This document shows positions 18,551 to 41,305 of a DNA stretch of 64,000 bases, piece after piece. The position numbers and the translations under genes were made by a program. The notes beneath the pieces are model-generated. The model saw only the letters and a list, made by a program, of their open reading frames with translations, ran no database searches and had not been told where the DNA came from. Position 1 is the stretch's first letter. Each line of letters begins with the position of its first letter. Source of the stretch: Hallerella succinigenes (GTDB taxonomy: Bacteria > Fibrobacterota > Fibrobacteria > Fibrobacterales > Fibrobacteraceae); NCBI RefSeq assembly GCF_002797675.1, contig NZ_PGEX01000001.1:1736001-1800000 (forward strand). The letters run 5' to 3'.

Positions 18551-18632
18551 AATGTATTCTCTCGGTTACAAAGGTAAACATTTAACCTAGCCAGCCCCTC
18601 TTTATATTTGATCAAACAACTATTTTATAAGC

Positions 18633-19487
18633 ATGGAACCAAGTGCAGAAGAAAATAAGAAGCTGTCCATGCCGGACGTTTTGCAATACACGAATTACCG
18701 TGTATTCCTGCACGACTATTATGCCTATAAAAAGTCGACATCGGCGGTTTTCAGCTTGCGTTTCTTTGCCGCAAAGGCTGGGCTTTCGAGCCATGCGCAT
18801 TTGAAGCTCGTGATGGACGGCAAACGGAACATTACCAAGAATACAGTCGTGAAAATCATCCAAGGGTTGAACCTCGCGGATGAACGCGCTACCTATTTCG
18901 AAAATCTGGTGTTCTTCAATCAGGCGAAGACGGACAAGGAAAAGGCTTTCTACTATGGAAAGCTCGTCAAGTCCACGCCAGGTTCCCGTTTGCATAAGAT
19001 GGACCAGGCACATTTTCGAATTTTTACGGAATGGTATCACTCCGTAATCCGTGAAATGGTGGAACTTCGGGGCTTCAATCCGGCTCCGGAATGGATTTCG
19101 AGACGTCTCGGCGGAACGATTACGCCGGCCCAGGCTGCGGAATCCTTGAACCTGCTGTCTTCCCTTGGACTGATTTCCAGAACGGCGAACGGATACAGCC
19201 AGGCGCAGTCCTTGATTACGACCGATGACGAGGTAAGCGATCTGTTGGTGAAGCAGTACCATCGTCAGATGCTCGACCAGGCAAAAGATTCAATGGAAAA
19301 TGTTCCTGCAGAAAAAAGGGATATTTCGGCGGTGACTTTTGCGATTCAGCGTAAAGATTTCCCTGCTTTAAAAAAACATTTACAACTCATGCGAAAAGAA
19401 CTATTAGATTTCTCTAGTGAGTCGGGGACAGGAGAGGATGTTGTTCAAGTGAACATCCAACTGTTCCCATTAACGCGAGGAATGTAA
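18633..19487 (+). CDS. TIGR02147 family protein (putative DNA-binding regulator)
   Basis: 284 residues. An N-terminal helical region (about 12-90) has the family motif YTNYRVFLHDYYAYKK, followed by a helix-turn-helix-like stretch (FFAAKAGLSSHAHLKLVMDGKRNITKNTVVKI) and the linker where TIGR02147 meets a DUF4423-type C-terminal half. The middle contains FTEWYHSVIREMVEL, and a winged-helix-like segment follows (ITPAQAAESLNLLSSLGLI). The family is abundant in Fibrobacter and its function is undetermined. The stop overlaps the start of a lipoprotein gene by one base (TAATG). Confidence 0.88.
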   Translation: MEPSAEENKKLSMPDVLQYTNYRVFLHDYYAYKKSTSAVFSLRFFAAKAGLSSHAHLKLVMDGKRNITKNTVVKIIQGLNLADERATYFENLVFFNQAKTDKEKAFYYGKLVKSTPGSRLHKMDQAHFRIFTEWYHSVIREMVELRGFNPAPEWISRRLGGTITPAQAAESLNLLSSLGLISRTANGYSQAQSLITTDDEVSDLLVKQYHRQMLDQAKDSMENVPAEKRDISAVTFAIQRKDFPALKKHLQLMRKELLDFSSESGTGEDVVQVNIQLFPLTRGM

Positions 19488-20713
19488 TGAAGTTTGTTCG
19501 ATTCTCTATGGGTGCGCTTCTTTTGTACGCCTTTATGTTAATGGCGTGTACTACGTCGTCGGATCAAGCGGGAATCGAAATTGGAAATCCAGAAATCCAG
19601 GCCCATTCTTTTTTGGCACACTTTTTTGTGGATTATGGATCTGGCGAAAATGCGGATTCTGTCCAGCTTGACGGATTGCATTTGGCACTCTCGAAACTTT
19701 CTGCTTATTCCAGCTATTATATCTATGTGAGTTTTGACGCGGAAGACGGTTTAACCCTGTGGCCGGATGTGGCTTCGGATGCCCCGATGACGATTGCATT
19801 TACGGAAGATTCGACGACAACGATCGATGACTGGATGCGAGCCTTTGGAGACATTTCCATTGATGATGAAGGCCTGCTGAAGGAAATCGGGGCGCATTTT
19901 GCTCCGGTTGCGCTTGCCCCTCAGGTGACGGGCTCTCTCAAAATGGCCGATAAAAACGTTCCGTTTGTATTCTCTCTTGCCGGGCTCGATTCGTTCGAAC
20001 TTCGCTACATGCAGGATCAGTTGGATACTGCAGAAAATGGAGCGATTTCTTTGACGGTGCGTTTTAGTGTGCCGGACTGGGTGGAAGGTCTCTCTCTTTC
20101 GACGGCAATGCTCGACGGCGACACGGTTCGTTTCGATGCTTTGCATAACGCGGTCCTTTGGGATTCTTTGACAACGCGCTTTGTAAAGTCTTTCTCGGCG
20201 TCACATTACATTGTGAACTATGCCTCTGGTACTGAGGAAGAAGATTACGCAGAGGATGTACTTGCGCGGTATGACGTTGTCGATTCCAACTGGGTTTCGA
20301 ACGGGACGTTTGAAACCGGCGAAGATTGGATCTTGGTGCGTCAGCTCGGCGGTTATGCAGATACTTCCGTGTCGAACAACATCATGATGGTGAACGTGAC
20401 GTATCCGGGGCCGTACAGCTACAGCGTGCAGCTGATCCATGAAGATATTCCGCTTTTGAAGAATCGCAAGTACAAGCTTGTGTTTACCGCTTACGCGCAG
20501 GATTCTGCATATGTCACAGTTCGCATCGGTTCTTACAGCACGTACAATACCGAAGCTCTCCAGGAACATGTGACTCTTGAACCGGTCTGGAAATCGTATG
20601 AGTTCGAATATGCGGCTCTGGTCGATGATCTCTTTTCTCGCCTCGAATTCAATGTGGGCAAGAACCAGACGAAGTATCAGTTCAAGGATGTGAAGATTTA
20701 CCGCATCGACTGA
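19487..20713 (+). CDS. Lipoprotein with C-terminal carbohydrate-binding-like domain
   Basis: 408 residues. Lipobox MLMAC (Cys at about residue 21) is followed by GIEIGNPE. Residues about 30-260 form a beta-rich domain of unknown family. From about 270 (NWVSNGTFETGEDW) to the end lies a CBM4/9-like beta-sandwich, with YSVQLIHEDIPLLKNRKYKLVFTAYA and YQFKDVKIYRI. It is coupled to the TIGR02147 gene upstream, an arrangement repeated near 36.4 kb. A surface sensor or binding protein is plausible. The 3' end overlaps the convergent EamA gene by 32 bases. Confidence 0.72.
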   Translation: MKFVRFSMGALLLYAFMLMACTTSSDQAGIEIGNPEIQAHSFLAHFFVDYGSGENADSVQLDGLHLALSKLSAYSSYYIYVSFDAEDGLTLWPDVASDAPMTIAFTEDSTTTIDDWMRAFGDISIDDEGLLKEIGAHFAPVALAPQVTGSLKMADKNVPFVFSLAGLDSFELRYMQDQLDTAENGAISLTVRFSVPDWVEGLSLSTAMLDGDTVRFDALHNAVLWDSLTTRFVKSFSASHYIVNYASGTEEEDYAEDVLARYDVVDSNWVSNGTFETGEDWILVRQLGGYADTSVSNNIMMVNVTYPGPYSYSVQLIHEDIPLLKNRKYKLVFTAYAQDSAYVTVRIGSYSTYNTEALQEHVTLEPVWKSYEFEYAALVDDLFSRLEFNVGKNQTKYQFKDVKIYRID

Positions 20714-33276: not shown

Positions 33277-35169
33277 TTAACGGATCGAAATCGCGGCCTG
33301 CTTGCTTCCGATGCGAAGAATATACTTGCCGGAGTTTGCGACGTTCAGGTTCAGGCTTGAACCGTTTGTGCGGCCACTTGCCATAACTTGTCCGAGCATG
33401 TTCGAGAGCATGTACAGACTGCCGTTTTCAATCCCGCTCACGGCGATGTTCTTGCCCTGTACGGAAACGTTCAGCGGGGAAGCCTTGGTGGCGATTTTCG
33501 GGAGTGCGGTCGTCGTATCGATTTCGACCGGGCTGTAACCCGAAACTTCTTCTTCGCACTTCAGGTCTTCAATCCAGAGTGAAGTGTCAAAGAAGTCGTT
33601 CGTGACCACAAAGCGGAATGCGGTAGCGGCTTCCAAAACCGGAACTGTCGGAATGCCTGTCTGCCAACCGTTGCTTGTCATCCAGCCGAGATCGACGTGA
33701 ACGGTTTCCCATTCCGGAGCGTACGGCATTTCGACGAATGGATAGTCCCAAACTCCTACGCCGAAGTAATCAACGCTTGCGTTCCAGTCGTAGTAAAGGG
33801 TGAATTGGTGGTTTGCGCCTTTGTACTTGTAACTCACCATCTTGCAGTTCGAAAGATCGACGCCTGCGCCGAAGGTGTATTCCGCACGAATGTAGGGCGC
33901 ATAATCAAAGCCTGTGCCGACCGTGTCGAGAATCATGTTGTCCATTTTGACCGTGGTCGCGGTGGAATTGTTAGTGAATGTGGAGTTGCCCTTTTCGCCT
34001 TGTTCGTCGCCGTAGTCGTCAATGTCGCTAGTGGCGCTCCAAGTTCCCGAAATAGCACTAGAAGTGCCGTAGGTGACGGAGCCGGGCAGGTTGTCGGTAA
34101 TGGATGTTTCCCAGTTCACGTTCTTGGTGTATGTCGTTTTGGGCGGAAGAATATTTGCCTTGATGTAGTTGTCGACGTCGTTGTCTTCGAGATAAGGTTT
34201 TTCTACATCCCACTTGGCGGTCGAAAGTTTTTTCTCGTTGACCCAAGAAAGGAAACTTTCGAGCTGAGTCTTGTAAGAAGCGTTCGTGAAAATGTCGTCG
34301 ATGCCGCCCCATTCCGTGACGAAGATGCTCAAACCGTTTGCCATGGCGGTGTTTGAACTTGCAATGTGGCTTGCGGTCTGGTGCAGGTTTGCGTAGAAGT
34401 GATAGGTGTAGGCGACATTTTTATCTTGGACCGGATTTGAAATCGCTTCGCCTGCCATCGAAGACCAGGTCGGCGTTCCGATGACGACAAGGTTGTTTGA
34501 GTATTTACGAATTTCGGTGAGGACACTGTCGGCATAAGCCTTGAGATCGTCCCAGCTTTCGCTGACCGGTTCGTTGTAGATTTCAAAAATCACATGCGGA
34601 TATTTGCCGTAGCGTTCTGCCATACGGCCGAAGAATGCGGCTGCGTCGGCTGCACTGAAGCAGGTCTTGTTGTCGTTGAATTCATACTTCGGCTTTTCGT
34701 TTGGGTGAATGCAGTTGAAGTAGCCGCCTTCACTGTGCCAGTCGATTAAAACGTAAACATCGTTTGCAATTGCAGCCTGCACGACCGTATCCATTTGAGA
34801 TTCAAAATATTCCGGGCGGGTCATATAACTGCCGTGGCCCCAAGGCGGGACAATGCCCATCGCAGAACGAATGAGTTCTACGTTCCAGGATCCGACGAGA
34901 GTGTCGATAAAGGAATGCCCATAGAAACTCGAACCGTACGGCCAATACTGGCTCCAGGTAAGGCTCATGCCGCGGACCTGAACTTCTTTACCGTCCACGA
35001 CGCCATCGACGGAACCGTAGATACGGCCTTCGCCAGCGGCGTTTGTGCCGGTTTGCAGTGCGCCGTACTGGCTCACAGGTCCGACACGAGTCGGTTGAAT
35101 CGTTGCAAAGGCACTGCTTGCGAGTGCGAATGCGCAAAGGGCTGTTACAGCCTTCATCGTCTTTTTCAT
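33277..35169 (-). CDS. Secreted GH5 endoglucanase with carbohydrate-binding region and C-terminal sorting-like domain
   Basis: 630 residues from ATG 35169. Signal peptide to about residue 22. The GH5 catalytic domain runs to about residue 330, with VLIDWHSEGG, acid/base Glu200 in IYNEP and nucleophile Glu286 in FVTEWGG. A beta-sandwich segment (about 375-555, with WSATSDIDDYGDEQGEKGN and a late LWIEDLKCE) looks like a CBM11/CBM30-type module. The last 65 residues (LNVSVQGKNIAVSGI...YILRIGSKQAAISIR) resemble the type IX-like secretion/anchoring tail of Fibrobacter cellulases. Third gene of an operon with TIGR02147 and a lipoprotein. Confidence 0.9.
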   Translation of the reverse strand: MKKTMKAVTALCAFALASSAFATIQPTRVGPVSQYGALQTGTNAAGEGRIYGSVDGVVDGKEVQVRGMSLTWSQYWPYGSSFYGHSFIDTLVGSWNVELIRSAMGIVPPWGHGSYMTRPEYFESQMDTVVQAAIANDVYVLIDWHSEGGYFNCIHPNEKPKYEFNDNKTCFSAADAAAFFGRMAERYGKYPHVIFEIYNEPVSESWDDLKAYADSVLTEIRKYSNNLVVIGTPTWSSMAGEAISNPVQDKNVAYTYHFYANLHQTASHIASSNTAMANGLSIFVTEWGGIDDIFTNASYKTQLESFLSWVNEKKLSTAKWDVEKPYLEDNDVDNYIKANILPPKTTYTKNVNWETSITDNLPGSVTYGTSSAISGTWSATSDIDDYGDEQGEKGNSTFTNNSTATTVKMDNMILDTVGTGFDYAPYIRAEYTFGAGVDLSNCKMVSYKYKGANHQFTLYYDWNASVDYFGVGVWDYPFVEMPYAPEWETVHVDLGWMTSNGWQTGIPTVPVLEAATAFRFVVTNDFFDTSLWIEDLKCEEEVSGYSPVEIDTTTALPKIATKASPLNVSVQGKNIAVSGIENGSLYMLSNMLGQVMASGRTNGSSLNLNVANSGKYILRIGSKQAAISIR

Positions 35170-35227
35170 TGTACCTCTCTCCGAGTCATAAATGGCTCCT
35201 GTTTTTTTTCGTCGCAAATTCAAAGGC

Positions 35228-36433
35228 TTAGAATCGCATGCCTAAGCTTGGCCACATGCTTGGCGAAATTCCATCAAAACGAACATTGTCCAAATAGATT
35301 TCCGCATCGCTTTCGACCATAAAATTCAAAGAGTTCACCGCGGCGAGTTCTGTGTCGAAATCTTCGGCGGTAAAGGTAAAGTGCTGCCATTCGTCGGTGA
35401 GCGTGACGGGCCATGTCTTGTGATATTCCCGTTTGCCTTCATCGCTGCGCTTGGTGATTTGCAAGAAAAGTTCACCCGAGCCTTTGGCGTCAAATGAAAT
35501 CGCGGTGGCGCTTCTCAAATCGTAGAAGGAGAACATTTCGTCTTCGTCAAAATCGTCGCCGATGGTGAAGCCTGCGACGCCGTAATGCCCCGGAGTTTCT
35601 TCGTCCAAATCAAAAATCAAATGCAGACTGCTGCCGTCTTTTGCGCTGTCTCCCGTGACGAGAATGTTCGGGCTGGAGATGCCGTCTTGAACGTGGCTTC
35701 CGCCGCCTTGTAGCGAATCGGTGCAAATAAACCACCAGCCCTGTCCAAAGCTTTTGCCGAGGAGCGTCTGGCGGGATTTCCAGTTTTCAAAGTCTTCGAC
35801 GACAGTAAAGATGCTTTCGGCAATGTCGATGTTGTTTGTCGTTGCATATTCTTCAAGATCCGTTTCCATCTGGTAAGAGAACTTTCCAAAGTTGCCTTCG
35901 ACGAATGCGTAATGGACACCGCTTGGCAAACCTTCAAAGGTGAAGTTGCCGCTTGCGTCAGTTTCGGTGGATTTGTCGAGGATGCGGATTGTGGCACCTT
36001 TCACGGCTTCGCCGTTATGGGTAATGGTTCCTTTCAGTGACGCGCTGGCGACCGCAGCGAGTGTTTGCGACGGTTTTTTGCCGAGATCCACCCAGCGCAT
36101 CACCGAAAGAGAGTCTCCGGAATGAGTTTCGATCAGCTGAATGGAAGACTTGTCTTCGGCGCGGATCGTGGACTTGAATTCCAAAGTCCCGGACTCATTT
36201 AAAGTATCTTCAAACGCGAGCTGGATGGTGTCTTTGTGCAAGACCCAGACGCGGGCCGCGGCACGGGCAAGAGGATGGCCGCTAGGATTTGTGACCGTGA
36301 TGACGCCGGCGAGTTCCGTTTCGCCAGCGTTGCTGCCTGTTCCGTTTGCCACGGAATCGCTGCTGCAGTTGCTGAAAACGGCTGCGCAAACGGTGAAAAA
36401 GAGGAGTGCGAAAATCCGCGAAAGAAGCTTCAT
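35228..36433 (-). CDS. Lipoprotein with carboxypeptidase-regulatory-like and CBM-like domains
   Basis: 401 residues from ATG 36433. The lipobox is AAVFSNC (Cys at about residue 22). It has an N-terminal beta-domain (about 35-125), then a CarboxypepD_reg-like unit (about 133-190: LKGTITHNGEAVKGATIRILD..TDASGNFTFEGLPSG). The C-terminal jelly-roll (about 210-390) is of CBM11-like type with FDAKGSGELFLQITKR and AEIYLDNVRFDGI. It overlaps the TIGR02147 gene by 4 bases (ATGA) and precedes the GH5 gene by 58 bases. A surface glucan-binding role is inferred. Confidence 0.75.
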   Translation of the reverse strand: MKLLSRIFALLFFTVCAAVFSNCSSDSVANGTGSNAGETELAGVITVTNPSGHPLARAAARVWVLHKDTIQLAFEDTLNESGTLEFKSTIRAEDKSSIQLIETHSGDSLSVMRWVDLGKKPSQTLAAVASASLKGTITHNGEAVKGATIRILDKSTETDASGNFTFEGLPSGVHYAFVEGNFGKFSYQMETDLEEYATTNNIDIAESIFTVVEDFENWKSRQTLLGKSFGQGWWFICTDSLQGGGSHVQDGISSPNILVTGDSAKDGSSLHLIFDLDEETPGHYGVAGFTIGDDFDEDEMFSFYDLRSATAISFDAKGSGELFLQITKRSDEGKREYHKTWPVTLTDEWQHFTFTAEDFDTELAAVNSLNFMVESDAEIYLDNVRFDGISPSMWPSLGMRF

Positions 36434-37284
36434 GCTTTTTTCTCCTTTGCGGGTATTTGAGCACGCGGAACCAGTTGGAATCCGACATGGCATACGCGGT
36501 CAGGATTCGACTCTTCTTGAGCGATTGCTAAAATTTTTTCGCGGAGCGCAGTGATTTCGGTGCGCACTTTTTCGAAGCCTTCCTTCGAAAGACTACAAGT
36601 AACGCTTGTGATGCTGCGTTCGTCGCTTGTAAAACTGTCGTAGACTTCGCTGTTGATTTCCAGATTCTTCAAATGGTACTTGCGAAGCATTGTGGAACGC
36701 ACGCGTGGCGGCGTTGAAACGACAGGACTTGTGACCGAGAATTTGCCGTTCTTGTCGCAGACGATAAAACCAGCTTCGGTCAAATAACGAATGCCGCTCT
36801 TGATTTGGGGTGCGCGAAGAGGCGGAGTGAAGAATCTGCCGATCTTTTCCGCAGATGTCCTTGCCGGAACGAGCGGAAGAAGATCTCGCAGAACGGGATA
36901 GTACCATTTTGAAAAGAACTGGAGCGCGGAATCCTGCAAAGCGTACTCCTGCTTGCTCGCACGGGCGGCGAGCAGCTTTCTCAACAAATGCTCCCGCTTG
37001 TCCACGTTTTTTTCGTTTCCAAATTGAACGAGTCCCAAAAAATAATCCGCTTCCTCGCCGCGCAAATTCCAAGCCTTGGCAAGAACTTTGGCGTTAGCAC
37101 TGGAAAGAGGACGGGTTCCGTCCAAAATTCGAGAAAAGAATGCAGAACCCGGAACGCCTGCGGCTTCCTGAATGGATCGCATTGAAGCGCCTTCGGATTG
37201 CAATGCTTCCAAAATCGCGTGGATGTACTCGCGATAATCGAAATACATAAATACACTAATTTCGGAAACACTCTGCATGTCCAT
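36430..37284 (-). CDS. TIGR02147 family protein (putative regulator), first gene of cellulase operon
   Basis: 284 residues; ATG at 37284 or the in-frame ATG at 37248 (MYFDYREYIHAILE) could start it. It has the family N-terminus FDYREYI, a helix-turn-helix-like segment (SIQEAAGVPGSAFFSRILDGTRPLSSANAKVLAKA) and FFSKWYYPVLRDLLPL in the middle. A winged-helix-like segment follows (RAPQIKSGIRYLTEAGFI), then a DUF4423-like C-terminal part. It is coupled to the lipoprotein gene and sits upstream of the GH5 gene, so control of, or by, cellulose sensing is a reasonable hypothesis. The family has no settled function. Confidence 0.88.
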   Translation of the reverse strand: MDMQSVSEISVFMYFDYREYIHAILEALQSEGASMRSIQEAAGVPGSAFFSRILDGTRPLSSANAKVLAKAWNLRGEEADYFLGLVQFGNEKNVDKREHLLRKLLAARASKQEYALQDSALQFFSKWYYPVLRDLLPLVPARTSAEKIGRFFTPPLRAPQIKSGIRYLTEAGFIVCDKNGKFSVTSPVVSTPPRVRSTMLRKYHLKNLEINSEVYDSFTSDERSITSVTCSLSKEGFEKVRTEITALREKILAIAQEESNPDRVCHVGFQLVPRAQIPAKEKKA

Positions 37285-37471
37285 AAATATAAGATTTTAA
37301 TTCAAAAATGAATGTAAAAATTCAGATATAAAAAAATTAATACATAATATTTGGAAACACTTGGGAAGCCGAAAAATTAGGATTTTTTGCTGAAATTGCC
37401 CCAAAATCGGACTTTTTTAGGTGAACAAGAAAAGCTTGCGTTGCTATCATTTCAAAAAACAGGGAAAATTT

Positions 37472-39804: not shown

Positions 39805-41305
39805 TGTCTAAATAGTTGACCCTTAAAAAGTCACTTCGCGAGCGCAGGATAAGGAGGTTCGCCGTTTTTATTCACCCCTTCCCGGCAAAGGAAGCAACAG
39901 TATAGCCATTCCAACAGGACAAAAAAGCGCCTCATGGCCCTCTTGAAGTTGAACGCCGCTGCTGCAAGCTTTGCATTGAGCATGTCGCCAAAGATTCCCT
40001 TGTAGAAATTTCTACCCATACGGTGGTCGCTTTTCAGGTGGCCGTTGATAGGCTCGATGCCTGCCCTCTTGCAAAAAAGCTTGTGAGCCTTTTCCTTCTG
40101 GTAGTAAGTCGCGTTTTTCTTCGGGACGTCCGGTATCACGATCTTTGTCGTTCCGGATTCCTTTTGTCCGCGGTAGCCTCGGTCGCATGCGGCCTGGCTC
40201 GGCCTGAATCCAAGCATTTGTTCAACATGGTCAAGCGTATCGTCTATCGTATGTCCGTCATACTCGTCCCGGAACGAGACCGCGCCGACAATGATGCCGC
40301 TGTAGCTCCGGGCGATTGACACCTTGTTGCCGAACTCGTATTTCTTGTGTTCCTTGCCCTTGCCGATGCATTTTACTTCGGGTTCGTGAAGCGAATAGAC
40401 CTTGTCCTTGTCGCATTTCTTCTGTGCCAGAACTTTTTTGAAAAGCTCGATTTTTTCTTTGTACGTGTTCAACAAGTTCTTGCTGGCGAGATTTCGCTCT
40501 AATTCACGGACGAGCCGTCCCGCGATTGTCTTCAGCCTGCGATCTGCCTTGTGAGCCTTCTTGCCGTTCTTCGGGTGATTGCGGAAACGCTGGTCACGAT
40601 GGACCTTCTTCAAGGTTCTCTTGTAGGACTGTCTTTGCGGAAGATCATGCTCTTCCACGATCCTCTGTACCTGTTCTATTATCTTGTTCGCAAGTTTGGC
40701 GTCTGTAGGGAACGTGATGTTCTTTTCCTGCACGGTCGTGTCAAGAAAGACCGTGCCGCATCCTGTCGGTCCTTGTTTATCGTGGTCATCGTTGACGAGG
40801 ATACTTTCCTTGAGGATCATGTCCATGCCCGCTTCGCCAATCATGTGCCGGAAGTGAACAAGTTCGCTCGGGTCGCAGGGTTGCTCCGTCGAGAAGAACC
40901 GTTCTCCGCAAAAATACTGGTAATAGGCGTTTTCCTGAAACTGCTCCACGACGGACTCGTCCGATACGTTGCGGATGTGCTTCAGGATGATGAGCCCGGT
41001 CATGAGACGGATCGGCTTGTTCGGCGCACCCATTTTGTCGTCAAACCGTTTCGAAAACTCGGTCTCGAACTTGTTCCAGTCAATCTTGTTCGCGAGAACG
41101 TAGAGGGAATGCTTGTGGTTCAACTGCTCCTCAAGGGAACAGAAAAGGCTTGTCTGTGCGTGGGATTTTGGCGGTCTGTACATAAAAAATTGCAAGGTTT
41201 TCAATCATATTTTAGAAAACCTTGCAATATTTTCACAGGGTAGAAATCAGTTTTTCCCAATAGTTATGCGGGCTGGGCGGGATTTTAAGGGACGACTAAA
41301 TAAAA
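39805..41305 (-). mobile_element. IS5-superfamily insertion sequence
   Basis: Bounds are approximate. The transposase gene is framed by imperfect inverted ends: 39813-39828 reads TAGTTGACCCTTAAAA and the reverse complement of 41283-41298 reads TAGTCGTCCCTTAAAA (14 of 16 match). Beyond these the match fades within about 8 bases, so the exact tips and target duplication are uncertain. The right tip contains the stop codon of the restriction-system methyltransferase. Confidence 0.8.
39831..41204 (-). CDS. IS5-superfamily DDE transposase
   Basis: 457 residues. An N-terminal domain (LVHFRHMIGEAG, CGERFFSTEQPCDPSELV) of the IS5-type DUF772 kind is followed by a DDE catalytic core. The likely triad is Asp in VFLDTTVQEKNITFPTD, Asp in AACDRGYRG and Glu in GIEPINGHLKSD. 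A Lys/Arg-rich insertion (about 195-260) lies between the first two. Uninterrupted, so the element may still be active. Confidence 0.92.
   Translation of the reverse strand: MKTLQFFMYRPPKSHAQTSLFCSLEEQLNHKHSLYVLANKIDWNKFETEFSKRFDDKMGAPNKPIRLMTGLIILKHIRNVSDESVVEQFQENAYYQYFCGERFFSTEQPCDPSELVHFRHMIGEAGMDMILKESILVNDDHDKQGPTGCGTVFLDTTVQEKNITFPTDAKLANKIIEQVQRIVEEHDLPQRQSYKRTLKKVHRDQRFRNHPKNGKKAHKADRRLKTIAGRLVRELERNLASKNLLNTYKEKIELFKKVLAQKKCDKDKVYSLHEPEVKCIGKGKEHKKYEFGNKVSIARSYSGIIVGAVSFRDEYDGHTIDDTLDHVEQMLGFRPSQAACDRGYRGQKESGTTKIVIPDVPKKNATYYQKEKAHKLFCKRAGIEPINGHLKSDHRMGRNFYKGIFGDMLNAKLAAAAFNFKRAMRRFFVLLEWLYCCFLCREGVNKNGEPPYPALAK

Follow-up and report, generated by a model that had tools for sequence, protein, structure and literature searches.

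A putative TIGR02147 regulator, an exported lipoprotein and a GH5 cellulase in one operon of Hallerella succinigenes: one of about a dozen paralogous modules with private candidate operators

The 64,000-nucleotide stretch of the Hallerella succinigenes genome analysed here (the window; contig NZ_PGEX01000001.1, positions 1,736,001 to 1,800,000) carries a member of a set of about a dozen paralogous modules that couple a putative regulator of the TIGR02147 family to an exported partner protein. On the best reading of the sequences, TIGR02147 proteins would be dedicated transcription regulators of polysaccharide-degradation genes, each with its own exported, often lectin-like partner. We consider it likely that this explanation holds as a whole: a DNA-binding regulator, a private operator, a cognate exported partner and a short motif as the link between them. 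In the herbivore gut, Fibrobacter is among the leading degraders of cellulose. Three modules tied to cellulose, pectin and xylan enzymes would make these proteins candidate dedicated regulators of fibre digestion. The analysis thus offers a concrete candidate role for an uncharacterised family present throughout the 41 genomes of the phylum that were searched, and supplies a candidate regulator family, base-by-base candidate operators and candidate cellulose, pectin and xylan regulons.

The window operon (module A) lies on the minus strand, and a second module of the window (module C) on the plus strand:

36430..37284, (-): TIGR02147/DUF4423 protein, 284 aa, with a predicted XRE-type helix-turn-helix (HTH) and a predicted winged HTH
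35228..36433, (-): lipoprotein partner, 401 aa, with a lipobox up to Cys23 (the lipid-carrying cysteine) and a post-lipobox motif
36305..36352, (-): codons of the window partner motif VANGTGSNAGETELAG, residues 28-43
33277..35169, (-): GH5 cellulase, third gene of the operon (PF00150, E 2e-44), beginning 58 bases past the lipoprotein stop
37339..37361, (-): candidate window operator, copy 1, AGTGTTTCCAAATATTATGTATT, conserved in 5 species
37250..37272, (-): candidate window operator, copy 2, AGTGTTTCCGAAATTAGTGTATT, overlapping the first TIGR02147 codons, conserved in 5 species
18633..19487, (+): module C regulator (TIGR02147)
19487..20710, (+): module C lipoprotein partner, with the motif AGIEIGNPEI and a C-terminal CBM_4_9 domain
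18564..18581, (+): module C upstream element GGTTACAAAGGTAAACAT, the sole exact site in the 1.42 Mb scanned

These coordinates bear out the packing on one strand that the sequence-only reading had described for module A, with a 4-base overlap (ATGA) between the regulator and lipoprotein genes and the 58-base gap before GH5. The regulator scores 194 bits against NCBIfam TIGR02147 (Fsuc_second; cut-off 50), and DUF4423 (PF14394) covers its residues 112-273 (77 bits; cut-off 30); orthologs make the second ATG, at 37278, the more likely start over that at 37284. The lipoprotein carries a CarboxypepD_reg domain at residues 132-178 and a C-terminal part with weak CIA30/CBM_4_9 signals (E 0.02-0.035), which shows no homology to the cellulase's own C-terminal region; the only hydrophobic segment in its sequence is the N-terminal one. 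A structural model of the lipoprotein built without an alignment was poor (pLDDT 42) and was left out of all conclusions. On the GH5 protein, a type A T9SS sorting tail (TIGR04183) scores 18.9 bits, under the cut-off of 23. The order of the trio is kept in three other species of the genus, where GH5 is 77-92% identical; in a fourth species the trio is interrupted by contig ends, and in a fifth the GH5 ortholog is missing.

A TATATT-like element occupies 37285-37295, about 10 bases ahead of the TIGR02147 start. Such elements lie close to the start in several other modules too, which suggests very short or absent 5' leaders. Further upstream, a transposase-like ORF of 457 aa (39831-41204) recurs ahead of another TIGR02147 module (L050); it is therefore probably a multi-copy insertion element near TIGR02147 modules.

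The coupling of regulator and exported partner extends well beyond the window. TIGR02147 proteins occur in 41 of 41 Fibrobacterota genomes searched, with 1 to 46 reported copies each; in the H. succinigenes genome itself, a single contig of 3.13 Mb, 13 loci were counted, including one fragment. In a non-random sample, for which many loci were picked as best-scoring and ortholog groups were counted several times, a lipobox-bearing gene starts between -60 and +100 from the TIGR02147 stop in 142 of 168 readable cases, a lower bound because several unscored partners look like clear lipoproteins by eye. The most frequent offset between lipoprotein start and TIGR02147 stop is -4, found exactly in 57 of the 142. 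With genes from the same stretches as the sampled TIGR02147 loci as controls, a lipoprotein follows 12 of 14 TIGR02147 matches in the H. succinigenes genome versus 3 of 121 control genes (Fisher p 9e-13); two further comparisons of the gene that follows gave 23/25 versus 14/169 and 39/54 versus 17/346, with p values over the three comparisons from 9e-13 to 2e-28 and a control rate of 2-8%. The claim that the two genes form a pair, and do not meet by chance, thus stands, at 142/168 against 2-8% of controls. The expectation that a cellulase generally follows them found no support: among 35 third genes, GH5 is limited to the window module and its orthologs, and we reject a cellulase as the regular third gene. 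SusC/SusD domains were absent from the 25 families listed for third genes and from the 25 listed for partners, and a search for plasmid relatives found none.

Individual loci vary on this layout. At one (L049, position 1722583 of the H. succinigenes genome) a complete TIGR02147 gene lacks an adjoining partner gene; a palindrome TTTTAGTAAAAATTGGCATTTTATACTAAAA lies upstream of it, and none of the genus loci compared is a clear ortholog. At another (L055, genome position 1354881) TIGR02147 is in fragments, but an intact motif-bearing lipoprotein gene still follows, and the K operator described below is present there as an exact copy. Tandem TIGR02147-lipoprotein modules stand in rows of three in a genome of another genus (L136 and L137, genome G006), several of the partners having GVxQKGPFxxGSxV segments; the tandem arrangement suggests expansion through duplication. 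Outside Fibrobacterota, two Oligoflexia genomes and one labelled uncultured proteobacterium have a gene for an exported protein after most of their better-scoring TIGR02147 copies, and these partners are lipoproteins (CGTEIGNPS, CGTSTGNPV) or ordinary secreted proteins, with GNP or GNGG near the mature N-terminus. Low-scoring relatives in Oligoflexia (below about 90 bits; G041, G042) mostly lack an exported partner and are probably a separate branch of the family.

What do the partners have in common? Mostly about 150-900 aa long (401 aa in the window), they carry CarboxypepD_reg (41 of 75 partners), the ConA-like lectin domain Laminin_G_3 (21), DUF2341 (14) or Fib_succ_major (9), with Kelch, LRR or CBM_4_9 in others; common to them is only a short stretch right after the lipidated cysteine or signal peptide. 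In the window partner this stretch, VANGTGSNAGETELAG, is identical across four species but for one residue (an A/P neighbour outside the motif). Other partners have AGTATDTENTIAG, AGGSSEETNTIAG, GPGSETTNGI, AGIEIGNPEI or AGVISETESGKTLAG; each variant is private to its ortholog group and nearly invariant inside it. Synonymous sites in the motif codons are about as variable as elsewhere, lower only in group C, while the amino acids are fixed, so the constraint on the motif acts mainly at the protein level, and we reject the motif as a DNA element. Partner signal peptides have only 5-25% identical columns within ortholog groups and are the least conserved part of the proteins, which disfavours a pheromone derived from the signal peptide; a lipoprotein-sorting signal is disfavoured by the ordinary secreted partners that carry the motif too. 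In one Oligoflexia genome (G042), a TIGR02147 gene lies directly upstream of each of the seven GNGG[DEQH] sites found behind a signal peptide, and of none of the 15 other GNGG[DEQH] occurrences. An N-terminal partner profile, built partly from the same partners that it recovered, ranked nine TIGR02147 partners first across the whole H. succinigenes genome, followed by one orphan lipoprotein and then noise.

Upstream of the modules lie conserved repeats, one set per ortholog group and different from group to group:

Group A (window): repeat AGTGTTTCCRAAWWTWRTGTATT, present twice
Group B: repeat GTGTTCCCAAA
Group D: palindrome GTTGTAAAWNTTTACAAC
Group E: element GTTGTTTCTAGACAAC
Group F: element GAGAACGTTCTC
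Group G: element TTTTGTATCAT
Group H: element GTGTGTAAAAATTTA
Group I: element CGTATTC-N5-GAATACG
Group J: element TTGCAAAATTCTTTGCAA
Group K: element TTTGGACAAAAAGTCCATG

A whole-genome pattern scan found the window 23-mer exactly twice, both times at its own operon. The two direct repeats are spaced 89 bp apart in the window and 89-91 bp apart in five species, with poorly conserved sequence in between. The D palindrome also occurs in another genus, ahead of the same class of module. Within the 1.42 Mb of stretches scanned for operators, about 45% of the H. succinigenes genome, most operators lie in cis only: this holds for A, F and H, and for B and J to the extent that they were scored. Enzyme regulons of wider reach may thus be peculiar to modules D and E. 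A site of the B type at about 2101660 falls within a coding gene and was dismissed as chance. Upstream palindromes in general are only mildly enriched (mean arm 6.2 versus 5.5), and the real evidence for these putative operators is the ortholog-group footprints, not palindromes at large.

To judge by where their sites lie, module E may act on distant genes of pectin enzymes and module D on distant genes of xylan enzymes. Regulator E (genome position 501062) stands alone, with no adjoining partner gene, and an orphan motif-bearing lipoprotein (127430) has no regulator alongside. In three other genera the orthologs of the two are adjacent, and in two genomes of a fourth genus no more than about 3 kb separates them. 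Sites of the RTTGTYTNTRGACAAC type are common to both, and in the genus of H. succinigenes, where the two genes are apart, an E-type site lies in the lipoprotein promoter in 6 of 6 species. Scanning six genomes with TTGTYTNTRGACAAC gave 18 sites: 3 before regulator E, 5 before the orphan lipoprotein and 10 further ones, of which 9 lie 35-99 bp ahead of long exported proteins and 1 inside a gene; about 1% of random positions lie that close ahead of a long exported protein. One E site precedes a PL1 pectate lyase in the H. succinigenes genome (Pfam). The site is also present at the orthologs of this gene in two species, of which the one tested gave no Pfam match of its own. A PL10 pectate lyase (E 2e-98) has an E site ahead of it as well, and so does a GH43 gene (E 1e-22). 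Three of the nine exported proteins are members of one family whose match to pectate lyases is weak at best, and one has no assigned family. An exported protein with no Pfam match and an exact E operator 50 bases upstream (L331, genome G003:C63) is a candidate new pectin-related enzyme. The D operator, with one mismatch, precedes GH11 xylanase genes in three genomes, two of them confirmed by Pfam (E 6e-36 and 2e-32) and the third through similarity; 2 of 5 extra D sites are not at enzyme genes.

The sequence-only reading had proposed that regulator and lipoprotein work as a pair tied to the expression of the enzyme. Its pair is supported, and the control region it suggested contains the conserved, genome-unique 23-bp repeats; the tie to polysaccharide-degrading enzymes gains from the operators shared with pectin enzymes (E) and GH11 (D). 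The detection of cellulose at the cell surface, which that reading also put forward, would be a candidate role. New here are the N-terminal motif, the HTH architecture, the private operators, the occurrence in Oligoflexia and the secreted partners that are not lipoproteins.

The AlphaFold2 model of the window regulator (pLDDT 89) predicts an XRE-type HTH built of helices, followed by a winged HTH and then by a C-terminal part that is again helical. For the N-terminal domain (pLDDT about 95), VIA gives a Z of 7.3 to HigA on operator DNA, under Z 8, and Foldseek a probability >0.9 but E >0.3. The best structural neighbours of residues 14-98 are HigA antitoxins (Z about 7), and those of residues 113-190 are ArsR/MarR winged HTHs (Z about 7), with predicted wing strands at 174-184. 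Singly, these matches to the model are modest (Z < 8, the level of common HTH arrangements), but they are mutually consistent, and a PDB sequence profile search returned weak matches only, of the same HTH kinds. The structure search listed mostly HTH and winged-HTH folds, with no apparent TPR domain and no confident match to the whole protein.

The mechanism that we propose builds on the pairing, the motif, the operators, the regulon sites and the predicted fold; DNA binding, autoregulation, the direction of regulation, recognition of the motif by the regulator and the sensing of polysaccharide are what we infer. The TIGR02147 protein would be a cytoplasmic, sequence-specific transcription regulator with two domains of DNA-binding type. 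It would bind a private operator at its own promoter, in the window the two 23-bp repeats, and so control its own operon, that is, the regulator, the lipoprotein and, in the window, the GH5 cellulase; since operator A is found only there, the window module probably controls GH5 in cis. In modules E and D, the same operator would also serve unlinked genes, namely pectate lyases and GH43 or the GH11 xylanase. The lipoprotein would be the cognate exported partner. Besides its lipid anchor and the short motif, it would have a stalk of beta-sandwich type and a domain that varies between modules and often resembles a lectin or CBM. It is probably through the motif that the regulator recognises its partner, either before export, in the precursor, as a form of export feedback, or afterwards, as a peptide that is cleaved off the exported protein and returns into the cell. 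Private motif variants together with private operators would fit insulated receptor-ligand pairs. How could an exported protein signal to a cytoplasmic regulator when no membrane-spanning protein is known between them? We count this missing part between the outer-membrane lipoprotein and the regulator against our explanation, together with the cis-only operators, the modest structural matches, the partnerless L049 copy and, for module D, the mismatch at enzyme genes and the two sites elsewhere. Tentatively, and with doubts that outweigh our confidence, the modules may even represent an undescribed signalling class, in which a lectin-like exported protein would report polysaccharide, or its own export, to an XRE/winged-HTH regulator through a private N-terminal segment, with no transmembrane transducer, and so switch the matching degradation genes for cellulose, pectin or xylan.

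Most operators lie in cis only within the scanned part of the genome, GH5 follows only the window module and its orthologs, and lectin, CBM, Kelch, LRR and Fib_succ_major domains are what one would expect of adhesins. All of this would suit self-regulating surface-protein cassettes, in which TIGR02147 does no more than set the level of its own operon by export feedback, while the lipoproteins serve as adhesins or coat proteins and the cellulase is a mere passenger. We regard such cassettes as an unlikely account, given that in several species the E and D operators stand at unlinked genes for pectin and xylan degradation, and that the trio keeps its order in the genus. The motif might instead be unrelated to TIGR02147 and act as an envelope sorting or processing signal of a class of surface proteins, much as Bacteroidota surface-export signals also lie by the lipidated cysteine or mature N-terminus, where the motif sits. 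This seems improbable to us: the N-terminal profile matches almost only TIGR02147 partners in the H. succinigenes genome, the N-terminal GNGG proteins of G042 (7/7) are set apart from the 15 others by a TIGR02147 gene directly upstream, the variants are private to ortholog groups, and both lipoproteins and ordinary secreted proteins carry them. We give very little credence to the idea that TIGR02147 binds the preprotein, in the manner of an antitoxin or a chaperone, and that the conserved DNA elements are incidental. The HigA-like N-terminal domain would agree with such a role, and so would the 4-base overlap, which is also seen in toxin-antitoxin pairs and other two-gene complexes, but the partners are exported proteins of about 150-900 aa and not toxins, and a shared operator still links regulator and partner after the genes have separated.

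Our literature search, which mostly covered journals outside subscription, found no paper on the TIGR02147 family, and DUF4423 appeared in one table entry, for Bd3700 of Bdellovibrio (PMC12546842). A proteome study of F. succinogenes accounts for enzyme control only through general catabolite repression, to which cyclic-di-GMP may contribute, and reports that most lipoproteins, including four with CarboxypepD_reg, are lower on cellulose (PMC6851124).

Finally, we would like to place these modules among known regulatory systems. They resemble HigBA toxin-antitoxin loci in the HigA-like HTH and the apparently autoregulated two-gene operon, but their partner is exported and often lectin-like (in the window, a lipoprotein with CarboxypepD_reg), with no RelE-type toxin. 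With the control of polysaccharide utilization loci in Bacteroidota by SusR, hybrid two-component systems or ECF sigma factors, they would have in common the substrate-specific control of polysaccharide-degrading genes and surface glycan-binding lipoproteins; however, no SusC/SusD domain was among the families listed for third genes and partners, no membrane sensor was seen at the TIGR02147 loci, and the regulator family is unrelated. Examples of RRNPP systems are Rap-Phr, PlcR-PapR and Rgg-SHP. As in these, the gene of a cytoplasmic regulator is directly followed, often with an overlap, by that of an exported partner, which has a short private stretch that would serve for recognition (for Rgg, see PMC7564271). 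Unlike the short propeptides of RRNPP systems, the partners here are full-size surface or secreted proteins, mostly of about 150-900 aa; the regulator has no apparent TPR domain, and the hosts are Gram-negative. The closest functional analogue is the set of SigI-RsgI pairs of Clostridium thermocellum, in which a sigma factor (SigI) is matched with an anti-sigma factor that spans the membrane (RsgI). Our modules differ in that the regulator, an XRE/winged-HTH protein, matches TIGR02147 and no sigma-factor family, and the lipoprotein has no second membrane segment. As with SigI-RsgI, however, many paralogous pairs of a regulator and an exported partner, here putatively carbohydrate-binding, are encoded by adjacent genes, and the pairs govern polysaccharide-degrading enzymes, which is here their candidate role.
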